This document shows positions 21,096 to 43,726 of a stretch of DNA of 58,837 nt, piece after piece. Numbering within the stretch: the stretch's first letter is position 1; the number at the start of each line of letters is the position of its first letter. The notes beneath the pieces were generated by a model. The model was not told the DNA's origin. It searched no databases and saw nothing but the letters and a program-made list of their open reading frames with translations. The stretch comes from a bacterium BMS3Abin11 (GTDB taxonomy: Bacteria > Pseudomonadota > Gammaproteobacteria > BMS3Bbin11). Position numbers and translations under genes: made by a program. The stretch covers positions 118,754-177,590 of the forward strand of contig BDTD01000009.1 of assembly GCA_002897635.1 (NCBI GenBank), in the 5' to 3' direction.

Positions 21096-21380
21096 TTAGG
21101 CCACCGTTTGGCCCTTGAATGGCCGGTTAGCCACAAGATCTCGCTTTTGCTGCGGACTTAGCTTTTTAATCTGGATTTCTCGTCGTAGAGCTCCACCCTT
21201 ATCCTCAATCTGCTCGCTGTAAACGAGCTTTACAGGTAATCTTGAACGAGTATATTTCGCCCCCTTCCCCATATTGTGCAGAGCAATCCTAGTATCAACA
21301 TTGTTTGTGATGCCAGTATAGAGGCTGTTATCAGCACATTGCACAATGTAGACCGTCCAGATTTTATCTTCTGGCTTCAG
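21096..21380 (-). CDS. GIY-YIG nuclease-like protein (non-standard start)
   Basis: A YhbQ-type single-domain GIY-YIG protein of about 94 aa. The second motif half is CADNSLYTGITNNVDTRIAL, and the catalytic Arg/Glu region follows (KYTRSRLPVKLVYSE, RREIQIKKLS). The first half of the motif (WTVYIVQC) lies upstream of the only conventional start, GTG 21344. The frame is closed by TGA directly before CAG-CTG. I placed the start at CTG 21380, which forms a CTGA overlap with the stop of the upstream gene, analogous to ATGA coupling. The family is secure, the start is inference. Confidence 0.7.
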   Translation of the reverse strand: MKPEDKIWTVYIVQCADNSLYTGITNNVDTRIALHNMGKGAKYTRSRLPVKLVYSEQIEDKGGALRREIQIKKLSPQQKRDLVANRPFKGQTVA

Positions 21381-21706
21381 CTGTCAACTCCAGAAATGAC
21401 ATGCTCATTCATATCGCCGGTGACGGACAGGTGTAACTCGGTAGTATCCGGTAATCGGCTCAGGATATAGGCAGACATCATTACCCCGGTTTTTTGATCA
21501 TCTGTATTCAATGCCGTCAGTAACTTATCCGCCACAATCTGACAGCGTTGATGTTGATCAGGGCTTTCAACCCATATCTGGCTCATCTGCCAGCCCTTGC
21601 TCATGTCATTATCCAGATGGCTGAAGAAATCTTCTGCTTCTGTCACTATATAATCGGGAATTTCAATTGGATATGTTTGGTCTTCCAGGAAAACTTTAAG
21701 TATCAT
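21377..21706 (-). CDS. Hypothetical protein
   Basis: A 109-aa protein, MILKVFLEDQTYPIEIPDYI at the N-terminus, then acidic helical sequence. It has no membrane segment and no motif that I recognise. It overlaps the GIY-YIG gene by 4 nt and is divergent from the PiuC-like oxygenase gene, whose ATG is 33 nt away. The two genes therefore share a very short promoter region. Confidence 0.65.
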   Translation of the reverse strand: MILKVFLEDQTYPIEIPDYIVTEAEDFFSHLDNDMSKGWQMSQIWVESPDQHQRCQIVADKLLTALNTDDQKTGVMMSAYILSRLPDTTELHLSVTGDMNEHVISGVDS

Positions 21707-21739: not shown

Positions 21740-22411
21740 ATGTTACTACGCATCAAGGGCCTCATTCCATCAGACAAACTGGCAATCGTCAGAGAAATTC
21801 TGGATTCCGCCGAATTTATCGATGGCAGGCTTTCTGCCGGCAAGGAAGCTGTCAGCGTTAAAGATAACGAAGAACTGCCGCAAAACCACCCCGAAATGGC
21901 AAGACTCAACAATATTGTCATGGGACATTTAGTGAATCATCCGATATATAAATACGGTGTCCTGCCACATCGCATTGCCGCTCCATTCTATGCCCGCTAC
22001 ACAGCCGGTAAACAGTATGGGAAACATGTAGACGACCCGATTATGGGGGCCGGAGACAGTTATCGTACAGATGTATCCATCACTGTTTTCCTCAATGAAC
22101 CCGATGAATATGATGGCGGAGAACTGACGGTCTCCAGCCAATACGGTGAAGTCAGAAATAAGTTTCCTGCCGGTGATGCGATTCTTTACCCTTCCGGCAG
22201 CCTGCACCAGATACAACCCATCAGCAAAGGCACCCGCCTGGTTGCTGTAACATGGGCACAGAGCATGATACGGGATACAGGACAGCGGGAATTACTTTAC
22301 AACCTGAGTCAGGCACGTGATGAACTGATTAGAAATGACCCAAAAAACCCGGTTACTCAGAAAGTCAGCACCAGCTACATCAATCTAATCAGGATGTGGG
22401 CTGAAGTCTGA
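21740..22411 (+). CDS. PKHD-type Fe(II)/2OG hydroxylase (PiuC/YbiX family)
   Basis: A 223-aa dioxygenase. Iron ligands are H and D in QYGKHVDDPIM and the distal His in SGSLHQIQPI; the 2OG arginine follows in SKGTRLVAVTW. The C-terminal helix (RELLYNLSQARDELIRNDP) matches the PiuC/YbiX family, often linked to iron uptake. The start is ATG 21740 (MLLRIKGLIPSDKL), as in family members; the frame upstream is not family-like. No siderophore receptor is adjacent, so the iron link is not supported locally. Confidence 0.9.
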   Translation: MLLRIKGLIPSDKLAIVREILDSAEFIDGRLSAGKEAVSVKDNEELPQNHPEMARLNNIVMGHLVNHPIYKYGVLPHRIAAPFYARYTAGKQYGKHVDDPIMGAGDSYRTDVSITVFLNEPDEYDGGELTVSSQYGEVRNKFPAGDAILYPSGSLHQIQPISKGTRLVAVTWAQSMIRDTGQRELLYNLSQARDELIRNDPKNPVTQKVSTSYINLIRMWAEV

Positions 22412-22596: not shown

Positions 22597-22800
22597 CTAC
22601 CGTTCTGAACCTCGTTCTTTATGAGCATCGTTCATTACACCAACAGCGATCTCGTGGTAGGCATCTTTGTAGCCATCAAGAACAGCGCCTGACTCAGGTG
22701 TGTAATAATCTTTCGCATCGAAACCGTTAGCATGTTCGTTTTCGATAAATTTCTTCTGCATATCCAGCATTTTCTGGATTTTTTCCTGCTTAGTGCTCAT
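22597..22800 (-). CDS. Small hypothetical protein next to DsrC-like gene
   Basis: A 67-aa charged helical protein (KIQKMLDMQKKFIENEHANG, then DYYTPESGAVLDGYKDAYHE). No cysteine and no membrane segment are present. GGAG precedes the ATG, and an intrinsic terminator follows. It lies 140 nt after the DsrC-like gene on the same strand. The family is not recognised; a role with the DsrC-like protein is only a guess from position. Confidence 0.65.
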   Translation of the reverse strand: MSTKQEKIQKMLDMQKKFIENEHANGFDAKDYYTPESGAVLDGYKDAYHEIAVGVMNDAHKERGSER

Positions 22801-22940: not shown

Positions 22941-23279
22941 TTAATAACCGCCTTTTCGACGACTCTCTGGCAGACCACCAATGCGGCCAGCCTGTTTGCT
23001 TGGGCCACCAGGGAACAGGTCAAACAGTTCTTTGGAGCTAATTTTCTCACCCCATACCTTGCCCATGTCTTTATTCATATTGCGCGTATTTGGCTGATTT
23101 CCACCATTTTCAATAAATTCTGAACGCAGATATTTAACCACATCCCAATGACGATCAGTCATCTCGATACCTTCATCTTCAGCAATATGTGCGCCGAGAC
23201 TTTCGCTCCAGTCATTAATGTCGGTGAGATACCCGGTTGCCGTTGTATCAATAGTTTTGCCTTCAAATTCGATTGCCAT
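22941..23279 (-). CDS. DsrC/TusE-family protein lacking both cysteines
   Basis: Members of this family carry sulfur as a persulfide on a C-terminal arm. The fold region is clear (GYLTDINDWSESLGAHIAED, TDRHWDVVKYLRSEFIENGG, LFPGGPSKQAGRIGGLP). The usual end is KQAC...PKPTGCV, but here it reads KQAGRIGGLPESRRKGGY. Both redox cysteines are absent, and the whole protein has none. ATG 23279 (MAIEFEGK), with AGGAG upstream, gives 112 aa, the normal DsrC length. It cannot be a standard sulfur carrier; a regulatory or structural paralogue (Rsp-like) is more likely. It lies next to the Cas6-like gene. Confidence 0.85.
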   Translation of the reverse strand: MAIEFEGKTIDTTATGYLTDINDWSESLGAHIAEDEGIEMTDRHWDVVKYLRSEFIENGGNQPNTRNMNKDMGKVWGEKISSKELFDLFPGGPSKQAGRIGGLPESRRKGGY

Positions 23280-23400
23280 CATCTGCTCCTGCTTTGTTAA
23301 ATCAGTCAAATATAACCAAACATTAATATTGTCGAATACTCAGGCGTATTCGTCAATTAATCTGTTTAATCTGCCCATAAACGGATCCTGATAACCTTGA

Positions 23401-24081
23401 TCAGGATTCCCTGGCATGTTTAATCCCTTTATGTGGCACAAACAGCCCACAACCCAATAGACGCCCCTCTCCGATACCCGCTTCCTGTAGTCTAATAGCT
23501 TCCATCGGCCCCAGATCTGCGACCATTAGACTGCGTGTCATGATGTCGCCATCAGGTGTCTTAAATGTCTGGGCTTTGCCGCTAAGTAATTTTCGTGGAG
23601 GTATGCTGAGTTTACTTAGCTCTGCGACGGCATTCTGTAAAAATTCTTCTTCATTCACGTCGGGACGAGTAATAATGTAACGGGAAAACTGGACTTCGTA
23701 TAGACTGAGCAATTTTACAGAAGACTTGCCTACTTTCAATGTCTTACCATCCACATCTAATGTTTTACCTTCCAGTTCCAGTGCCTCCTCAACCAGTAAA
23801 CCGGGTATGCGCAGAATCAGCTTTGTCCGTTTGCTGAGATGGATAAGGGAATCTGCTTCTTCAGGTCTGTTCCAACCGTTCATGGATTCGCCACCATGTA
23901 TCTGATGTATGCCGGCATGTGGTTCATCAGCAAGCCAGGGCAATATTTCCCGGATAGCCAGACTCAATCCCCAGACATTGTCATTGGCCAGGCATTTACA
24001 ATCGAGCTTGAAACTCAGATCGACGACATTGTCAGGAATCTTGAGTTTGTTGTCTTTATCGGCGTTTTCAGTCCAGTACAT
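23401..24081 (-). CDS. Orphan Cas6-like RNA endonuclease (Cmx6 type)
   Basis: A 226-aa protein resembling the Cas6/Cmx6 variant (TIGR02807) of type I CRISPR systems, which cuts repeat RNA hairpins. Support: VVDLSFKLDCKC at the start; the IHQIHGGES His-containing loop; LILRIPGLLVEEALELEGKT; and the C-terminal glycine-rich RLQEAGIGEGRLLGCGLFVP. There are no other cas genes and no CRISPR array in the window. It follows a 62-aa gene and precedes the DsrC-like gene on the same strand. It is either a remnant or, more likely given its intact frame, a domesticated RNA-processing protein. Confidence 0.75.
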   Translation of the reverse strand: MYWTENADKDNKLKIPDNVVDLSFKLDCKCLANDNVWGLSLAIREILPWLADEPHAGIHQIHGGESMNGWNRPEEADSLIHLSKRTKLILRIPGLLVEEALELEGKTLDVDGKTLKVGKSSVKLLSLYEVQFSRYIITRPDVNEEEFLQNAVAELSKLSIPPRKLLSGKAQTFKTPDGDIMTRSLMVADLGPMEAIRLQEAGIGEGRLLGCGLFVPHKGIKHARES

Positions 24082-24141: not shown

Positions 24142-24330
24142 CTACCCTCTGGAAGTGAACGATGCTTCGAGTTGTTCTTCCCAGTTGTCCGGCGTATCAA
24201 AAAATGGTGGCTTGACGTCCATACGAAAAAACATCTCACGTTTTCCACCACCATTTTTCACTACAGCGATTAACTCATCAAAGGATGTCAGTTCATTATT
24301 CTGTAACAACACTTCACTCAACCACAACAT
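24142..24330 (-). CDS. Small hypothetical protein upstream of Cas6-like gene
   Basis: A 62-aa protein (MLWLSEVLLQNNELTSFDEL, then IAVVKNGGGKREMFFRMDVK and PPFFDTPDNWEEQLEASF). GAGG ten bases before ATG indicates real translation. The family is unknown. It ends 60 nt before the Cas6-like start and probably shares its transcript. Confidence 0.6.
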   Translation of the reverse strand: MLWLSEVLLQNNELTSFDELIAVVKNGGGKREMFFRMDVKPPFFDTPDNWEEQLEASFTSRG

Positions 24331-41768: not shown

Positions 41769-42275
41769 AGATGGGGTCAGGTCGCACGCCGTTACCGGCG
41801 ATTAATCTAGCGGGTTAAAGTCCCGTCCGGGGAATTGCTCATTCACCCCGGTAGTACTGCGGAGCAGTACGTAAGTAATTATGCGCTGTAAGTTCCGCGA
41901 AGGCAAAGCTACAGGCCGCAACGTAAGTGAATCTGTTTAGCCTCGTTAACCTAGTGAGGATGTTGACCCTCTGACTTGAAGGGGAAAACTGATACTGCCC
42001 GGCTGACAATGAGTGTTTCGGGTGGATCCTCCGGGGTTATAGGAGTGGCATGTAGCGGAAGATTGATCGTGCAGGACGGGAGATCCAGTACGGTGGTGTG
42101 TGCAGCGCCAACGGGGTCGTATAAGTCTTAACCGGCGAAATCGACACTGGCTGTACTGGAAGTCTGAGGGGTTCATAGTACCGTTTGAGGGTGAGCGACA
42201 ACATAACGCCATCCGAGGAAAGGGACTCTACTTTGTTCACGCTAACCGAAGAGTAAAAGGCGGAGATGATTGCAA

Positions 42276-43613
42276 ATGCTAGAAACATCTGAATACTCGA
42301 AAGAGACCGTCAGGGCACTCCAGAGGAAGCTATACCTCAAAGCCAAGCACCAAACCAGCTTCCGGTTTTACAGTCTGTATGACAAGGTCTATCGAAGTGA
42401 TGTACTGCAACTCGCTTATGATCTTGTCCGACAAAACAAAGGTAGCCCCGGCCTAGACGGGGAGACCTTTGAGTCAATAGAGCTGGGAATAGGAAGACGT
42501 GCTTATTTGCAGGAGATACAGGAAACGCTAGAAAGCAAAATCTATCGGGCTATGCCTGTAAAACGGGTAGAGATACCCAAGCCGAACGGGGAGACCCGTC
42601 CGTTAGGGATACTCTGCATCAAGGATCGGATCGTACAAATGGCTGCAAAGCTAGTGATGGAACCGATCTTTGAGGCAGATTTCAGCCTGCATTCTTACGG
42701 GTTTCGTCCTAAACGATCAGCCCATCAAGCGATGGATGACATCAAGACTGGCCTGTTGTATGGCCATATTCAGGTGATCGATGCTGATCTGAGTAAATAC
42801 TTTGACATGATCCCGCACGACAAGTTGTTGCGCACGGTTGCGGAACGGATCGTTGACGGTCAGTTGCTCAGCTTGCTTAAGCAGTGGTTGAAAGTGCGGG
42901 TCGTTAAAGTTGATAAGAGGAAAGAAATTGTCGTAGGCGGCGGGAAGAAAGCCCGAAGGGGAACACCTCAAGGGGGTGTGATCTCACCGCTGCTGGCGAA
43001 TGTCTATCTCAACATCCTTGACCGGATATGGGACAGAAACCGTCTGGCGGAAAAGTACAAAGCCCGGCTCGTCCGCTACGCGGATGATATGGTGATTCTT
43101 TGTGCAAGAGAGACCGTCCGACCTTATGCCATTCTGCAATCTATCCTCACTAAGCTTGATCTTAAGCTGAATGAAGATAAAACGCAGATCAGGAATGCCC
43201 GCGAGGAACACTTTGAGTTTCTGGGATTCAGTATTGGCGTCGTCAGGGCAAAACAGTCAGGGAAATACTTTCCACTGGTAGAGCCGTCAGACAAATCGAT
43301 ACAATCCATAAAACAGAAGGTCAGGTTTTACACTCGGCGGGGCATGAACCCTGTTCCGATAGACGACATTGTAGGCAAGCTCAATCAAACAGCCCGTGGC
43401 TGGAGCAACTACTTCCATTATGGCCATGGCCATCGTAAGATGAAGCAGGTCAAATATTACATGGAAGAACGTTTACGCTGTCATCTTCGGTATCGGCATA
43501 AGCTTACTAACCGAGGGGCGGCTTATCATCGTTTCCCACGGCGCTATATTTATGACCACCTTGGTTTGTATAAAGTGCCAATTACTCCTGCCTGGAAAGG
43601 TGTGCATGCTTGA
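42276..43613 (+). CDS. ltrA: Group II intron reverse transcriptase/maturase
   Basis: A 445-aa intron-encoded protein. The reverse transcriptase domains include RPLGILCIKDRIVQMAAKLV, SYGFRPKRSAHQAM, GTPQGGVISPLLANVYL and the catalytic LVRYADDMVIL near residue 270. A maturase X domain follows (LNQTARGWSNYFHYGHGHRK). No HNH endonuclease is attached. The start is ATG 42276; TTG 42270 is nearer GGAG and also possible. The frame is intact, so the intron may be active. Confidence 0.94.
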   Translation: MLETSEYSKETVRALQRKLYLKAKHQTSFRFYSLYDKVYRSDVLQLAYDLVRQNKGSPGLDGETFESIELGIGRRAYLQEIQETLESKIYRAMPVKRVEIPKPNGETRPLGILCIKDRIVQMAAKLVMEPIFEADFSLHSYGFRPKRSAHQAMDDIKTGLLYGHIQVIDADLSKYFDMIPHDKLLRTVAERIVDGQLLSLLKQWLKVRVVKVDKRKEIVVGGGKKARRGTPQGGVISPLLANVYLNILDRIWDRNRLAEKYKARLVRYADDMVILCARETVRPYAILQSILTKLDLKLNEDKTQIRNAREEHFEFLGFSIGVVRAKQSGKYFPLVEPSDKSIQSIKQKVRFYTRRGMNPVPIDDIVGKLNQTARGWSNYFHYGHGHRKMKQVKYYMEERLRCHLRYRHKLTNRGAAYHRFPRRYIYDHLGLYKVPITPAWKGVHA

Positions 43614-43630
43614 GGAAGAAGAACATCGGA

Positions 43631-43663
43631 AAGCCGTATGCGGGAGAACCGCGTGTCCGGTTT
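43631..43663 (+). ncRNA. Group II intron domain V
   Basis: The catalytic hairpin reads AAGCCGTATGCGGGAGAACC then GCGTGTCCGGTTT. It has the AGC triad at its base and a GNRA-like loop (GAGA). Confidence 0.85.
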
Positions 43664-43726
43664 GATGAGGGGAGGAAGATGTCTGTAGGTGTTTGTTTTA
43701 TCAGGCGTCTTTCTTCTACTCTAATA

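Follow-up and report, generated by a model that had tools for sequence, protein, structure and literature searches.

A Cas6 homologue in the reverse-Dsr gene set of Gammaproteobacteria

Cas6 proteins of the Cmx6 family are described from type I-MYXAN CRISPR (clustered regularly interspaced short palindromic repeats) systems, for instance on the cyanobacterial plasmids NC_011737.1 and NZ_CP023280.1, where the gene sits with cas3-cas8-cas7-cas5-cas1. Another described homologue is the Cas6 of a type I-B CRISPR-associated transposon (CAST; PDB 8fcj and 8fcu), which works with a guide RNA in a transposon-bearing Cascade complex and has no link to sulfur genes. The position of the catalytic histidine in Cas6 is directly after the first strand (PMC3150331). 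A stretch of 58,837 nucleotides from the genome of the gammaproteobacterium BMS3Abin11 (contig BDTD01000009.1; hereafter the window) encodes a protein of the same Pfam and NCBIfam family, which shares the C-terminal GxGxxxGxG loop of the type I-MYXAN proteins but is merely 24-27% identical to them. Unlike those, its relatives (hereafter the dsr-linked family) have no cas neighbours and are nearly always encoded in genomes that carry the reverse dissimilatory sulfite reductase (Dsr) pathway of sulfur oxidation. This Cas6 homologue is part of the reverse-Dsr gene set in Gammaproteobacteria, not of CRISPR. The gene is the following:

23401..24081, minus strand: cas6-like gene of the PF09559/Cmx6 family, 226 amino acids, ATG start, intact frame, histidine-to-asparagine change at residue 35 (codon AAT)

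Judged from its sequence, the open reading frame (ORF) at 23401-24081 is a genuine Cas6 homologue. Indeed, the protein matches the PF09559 'Cas6 Crispr' profile with 187.6 bits (cut-off 26.7; E 2.9e-55) over 190 of the 191 profile positions and the NCBIfam model TIGR02807 (cas6_cmx6) with 109.6 bits (cut-off 98.85), it is recognised by PADLOC Cas6 models (best E 1.8e-54), and a family profile built from its relatives retrieves the CAST structure 8fcj_B (E 9e-26), the closest solved structure by both sequence and fold. The AlphaFold2 model of the window protein, built from a two-sequence input, is of low confidence (mean predicted local distance difference test score 50.7); the predicted order of its strands and helices fits two ferredoxin-like domains, and its eight significant fold matches are all Cas6 structures. 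The glycine-rich C-terminal loop is present (GIGEGRLLGCGLF) and is retained throughout the dsr-linked family, G202, G204, G210 and G212 being invariant or nearly so in the alignment. The original prediction had proposed a Cas6-like ORF with an intact frame and this loop, and both proposals were borne out; the failure of profile searches, which it had named as grounds for rejection, did not occur. No relatives of the dsr-linked proteins were found in viral contigs and phages, so that no phage origin of the Cas6 homologue is visible.

The distribution of the family follows that of dsrA. In a main sample of 369 genomes of Gammaproteobacteria, in which partial dsrA matches were scored as carriers, PF09559 was found in 118 genomes, nearly always in single copy, and dsrA of the reverse Dsr pathway in 119; the Cas6 carriers span at least 54 family-level groups. 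Both genes were present in 111 genomes, Cas6 only in seven, dsrA only in eight and neither in 243 (p 7e-75). With one genome per family the corresponding numbers were 51, three, four and 98 (p 1.7e-32); these p-values ignore deeper relatedness, and the pattern is nearly all-or-none. Incomplete genomes account for several of the exceptions; in one exception (G127, locus L069) the contig ends less than 1 kb from cas6, in the direction in which dsr would be expected. Cas6 is retained even in genomes of 1.0-1.1 Mb, and the genome of the window itself carries dsrA. A second sample, drawn differently and comprising 398 genomes of Pseudomonadota, contained five genomes with PF09559, all of them Gammaproteobacteria with dsrA and the sole Gammaproteobacteria of that sample with dsrA above the cut-off. 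Distance correlations of Cas6 with DsrA, DsrB and DsrE were weak (0.27-0.34), but that between DsrE and DsrA was weak as well (0.10), which makes this test uninformative.

The family's distribution is independent of cas1 and CRISPR. Indeed, in the main sample PF09559 and cas1 occurred together in 50 genomes, Cas6 only in 68, cas1 only in 85 and neither in 166 (p 0.13), so that 68 of the 118 Cas6 carriers have no cas1. Comparison of the 58.8-kb window with reference CRISPR loci revealed neither an array nor a homologue of Cas1, Cas2, Cas3, Cas5, Cas7 or Cas8, the same detector finding arrays in two genuine CRISPR loci, and no array or cas gene was found beside cas6 at the 60 or more orthologous loci. 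The window Cas6 is thus not encoded with cas genes and an array, as a CRISPR-Cas component would be. In the host genome (2.67 Mb, 99.9% complete), searches for cas1, a PF10040 Cas6 and a DevR-type cas7 were negative, but a below-cut-off match to cas3_core led to a type I-C effector operon, cas5c-cas8c-cas7c-cas3c (contig C20, 337-6371, locus L141; Cas8c E 1e-180). The notion that the genome is free of CRISPR was therefore rejected. The original prediction had noted that array and effector genes are absent, which holds for the window, and had stated that an array plus type I genes without a Cas6 of their own elsewhere in the genome would speak against a host role; of these, a type I-C operon is present, and no cas1 was found, nor any array in the first 20 kb of contig C20, the part scanned for arrays outside the window. 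Type I-C systems normally have no Cas6, their CRISPR RNA (crRNA) being processed by Cas5. Seven further genomes from the genus and family of the host were searched for the operon's cas7 without a match. The Cas6 gene is present in six of the seven, and three of these six are only 60-81% complete and therefore count for less. As to the operon itself, cas4, cas1 and cas2 were not recognised nearby, it lies close to a contig end, and genes in its surroundings resemble, by eye, those for toxin-antitoxin systems, an AAA ATPase and a RhuM-type protein.

The genes that accompany cas6 in the window and recur at orthologous loci are the following:

24142..24330, minus strand: p62, conserved small protein of 62 amino acids encoded directly upstream of cas6, with the motif DvKPpf.DTP.nWEdrLEaaF
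22941..23309, minus strand: rspA-type gene of the DsrC/TusE family, without cysteine, C-terminus RKGGY and not the PTGC(V/I) of DsrC
22597..22800, minus strand: conserved small protein of 67 amino acids (p67/p74 family)
21740..22411, plus strand: Fe2+-dependent dioxygenase of the PKHD/YbiX type, converging on the cluster, a recurrent neighbour (start inferred, the model matching at residue 65 of the listed ORF)
21377..21706, minus strand: p109, conserved protein of 109 amino acids, recurrent slightly further downstream

The product of 22941-23309 belongs to the DsrC/TusE family (PF04358, E 3.5e-31), and the 67- and 62-amino-acid proteins matched no Pfam or NCBIfam family above the cut-off. The cysteine-less DsrC-like gene and the two small genes that had been reported beside cas6 are thus real, and their conservation was examined at 60 loci of up to 16.6 kb each. 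The dsrABEFHCMK genes adjoin cas6 on the divergent side in 48 of the 60 loci, the common order being the dsr operon leftwards and then, rightwards, a TauD-like gene, p62, in some cases a gene for a 237-amino-acid protein, cas6, the cysteine-less DsrC-like gene and p67 or p74. A TauD-family dioxygenase (PF02668) was found in 43 of the 60 loci and p62 in 48, the 237-amino-acid protein lying between p62 and cas6 in 23 loci, and a DsrC-like gene directly follows cas6 in about 50 of the 60. Cysteine is absent from the last 15 residues in 47 of 50 of these downstream proteins, as in RspA-type DsrC homologues, whereas a C-terminal cysteine is present in 46 of 47 true DsrC proteins of the same operons; the neighbour gene was therefore not classed as DsrC or TusE, and we take it to be of the RspA type. 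What is new about this locus is that an RspA-type DsrC homologue is paired with a Cas6 homologue. The second sample added four genomes, and in each of them cas6 adjoins dsrA, accompanied by a DsrC-like gene, a gene for a 189-amino-acid protein and a TauD-like gene in three and by a TauD-like gene in the fourth. In the genome of the window the p62-cas6-rspA-p67 cluster is intact but apart from dsr, cas6 being on contig C9 and dsrA on contig C25, so that the linkage seen in most loci is lacking here; furthermore, the DsrC-like gene and cas6 are not neighbours in several congeners. Two families recur further off, outside the core cluster and not adjacent to cas6: the Alvin_2107 family globule sulfur oxidation protein (NF049856; 20 of 68 loci) and the Sfum_1244 family (NF045620; 26 of 68 loci). 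A small ORF resembling a GIY-YIG endonuclease was also recognised by eye next to the cluster (21096-21344, minus strand). Taken together, the near-perfect co-occurrence with dsr, the conserved neighbourhood and the lack of association with cas1 support the earlier proposal of a domesticated Cas6 with a host role, encoded beside a DsrC-like gene in sulfur oxidisers.

Alignment column 35, directly after strand 1, holds histidine in 71 of 72 dsr-linked proteins and in all six CRISPR Cas6 compared, so that the type I-MYXAN proteins share this residue with the dsr-linked family but not with the window protein, the exception among the 72. The window protein, in which asparagine takes this place as in the CAST Cas6 8fcj, appears to have lost the presumed catalytic histidine; it was therefore classed as a Cas6 homologue and not as a proven active Cas6, and its sequence does not place it among catalytically active Cas6 endoribonucleases. 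Of the predicted histidine-bearing loop, several histidines and the glycine-rich loop are present, but the presumed catalytic histidine is not. The dsr-linked family furthermore has invariant residues without counterpart in CRISPR Cas6, namely W3, a GNGWxRP insert, R85, K164 and H217-K218; four shorter proteins of the second sample lack W3 and the insert and retain R85 and K218. Mean identity among family members is about 43%. In a phylogenetic tree, 76 dsr-linked proteins stand apart from seven CRISPR and CAST Cas6 (support 1.0 for the latter group), the CRISPR Cas6 being drawn mainly from cyanobacterial plasmids. The cas6 gene is under purifying selection, pairwise ratios of non-synonymous to synonymous substitution rates (dN/dS) within the genus being 0.05-0.21. 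The closest relative (L033) retains H35 and carries glutamate at the otherwise invariant Q199, so that the two members of this sub-lineage each depart in a unique way from a residue that is fixed in the others.

These data suggest the recruitment of a CRISPR enzyme into sulfur metabolism, an event that could have taken place in an ancestor of many gammaproteobacteria. We give about even chances to the following reading: the recruited Cas6-family protein would be an endoribonuclease that binds RNA and, with the RspA-type protein, p62 and p67, processes dsr transcripts or regulates them. It would then act after transcription on the dsr mRNA or on an RNA made beside dsr, both the binding and the cutting of RNA being predicted from family membership. 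RNA binding and cleavage that control dsr expression with the DsrC-like protein would be the most likely mechanism, with about even prospects. In the lineage of the window, with cas6 at a distance from dsr and asparagine at residue 35, RNA would more probably be bound than cut by the protein, or would be cut weakly; the window protein itself is likely to bind without cleaving. Candidate targets are strong hairpins in the dsrA-dsrB (A-B) and dsrC-dsrM (C-M) spacers; these two spacers exceed shuffled sequence in structure (mean z -1.4 and -2.5, respectively) and often contain GC-rich stems of 8-12 bp, whereas the B-E, E-F, F-H, H-C and M-K spacers show little or no excess structure. Recurrent GC-rich hairpins of this kind were seen in the A-B and C-M spacers across gammaproteobacteria, for example at L045, L064, L066, L089 and L120. 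For Allochromatium vinosum, a statement in PMC3397948 that cites Grimm 2010 puts the mRNA levels of dsrEFH and dsrC above that of dsrA; the dsr cluster forms one transcription unit, in which dsrC and dsrS have additional promoters (PMC3368242). Unequal mRNA levels despite a single transcription unit fit segmental processing at the A-B and C-M spacers. A more specific version, in which a domesticated Cas6 cleaves hairpins of the dsr mRNA and thereby sets the unequal supply of DsrAB, DsrEFH and DsrC, with the cysteine-less DsrC paralogue as partner or sensor, is tentative and distinctly less probable.

Several results weigh against a role of this protein in cutting dsr transcripts. Hairpins also occur in operons of genomes without Cas6, at the C-M spacer in four of eight against 34 of 51 with Cas6 (p 0.44) and at the A-B spacer in four of 20 against 26 of 53 (p 0.03), and the reduced, AT-rich genomes of L051-L053, L075 and L096 retain Cas6 but lack such hairpins; the case for the spacer hairpins as a Cas6 substrate was weakened by the control on operons without Cas6, and they are kept as candidates only. 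The promoter of dsrC itself (PMC3368242) could alone explain part of the unequal transcript levels. About 47 dsrA carriers of the second sample outside the Gammaproteobacteria, among them Alphaproteobacteria, have no PF09559, so that the coupling is specific to Gammaproteobacteria. Finally, residue 35 of the window protein is encoded by AAT where its relatives have CAT or CAC, and the presumed catalytic histidine is lost a second time in a dsr-linked protein of the second sample (L119, 9480-10082), in which ATYPF replaces the DH motif and tyrosine stands at position 35.

These losses would be expected if the Cas6 fold were kept as a non-catalytic scaffold or protein partner of Dsr proteins such as RspA or DsrC, its work on RNA being gone, and the clade-specific invariants absent from CRISPR Cas6 agree with this. 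Retention of the histidine in 71 of 72 proteins of such modest mean identity is, however, hard to explain without catalysis, and with the glycine-rich loop kept throughout, we regard a scaffold as unlikely. Of the same low probability is a protein that serves sulfur oxidation through an RNA other than the dsr mRNA, for instance a small regulatory RNA of the cluster or a tRNA. The coupling of Cas6 with dsrA applies to it equally, the dsr spacer hairpins are not specific to Cas6, and the neighbouring protein is related to DsrC and TusE, whose relatives belong to a tRNA thiolation relay; but the cas6-rspA spacer contains no standout conserved structured RNA (mean z -0.4) and no match to an Rfam family.

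Whatever the family does elsewhere, the gene of the window genome could be a decaying remnant that will drift, as the asparagine at residue 35, the separation of cas6 from dsrA and a dN/dS of 0.21 against the closest relative, compared with 0.05-0.10 for more distant pairs, might indicate. This seems to us slightly less probable again, given the intact frame, the intact p62-cas6-rspA-p67 cluster and 94% identity of rspA to its counterpart in the nearest relative; an assembly error may also account for the single substitution. By far the least probable explanation is that of an ordinary crRNA-processing Cas6 serving a CRISPR system elsewhere in the genome. The type I-C operon on contig C20 would allow it, as would the lack of a further Cas6 in searches with two Pfam families, but it has against it the lack of cas1 association over the 369 genomes, the 60 loci without array or cas gene, the use of Cas5 for crRNA in type I-C and the relatives that keep Cas6 without a type I-C cas7.

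A known enzyme family is thus found in a non-CRISPR, metabolic setting. To our knowledge, there is no established field of work on stable roles of Cas6 outside CRISPR, and no report of a link between Cas6 and dsr was found in the literature searched, many journals lying outside its reach. About one in three of the sampled gammaproteobacterial genomes carries the family, which annotation pipelines automatically name 'CRISPR-associated'; matches to PF09559 or TIGR02807 should not be counted as CRISPR systems. The near all-or-none coupling to dsr offers a directly testable way into the control of the dsr operon, which is central to the sulfur cycle.

Elsewhere in the window, a group II intron was observed on the plus strand (41817-43725), with an Rfam D1-D4-6 match at 41817-42046, a domain V region at 43629-43725 and, between these two matches, an ORF resembling a reverse transcriptase/maturase (42270-43613).
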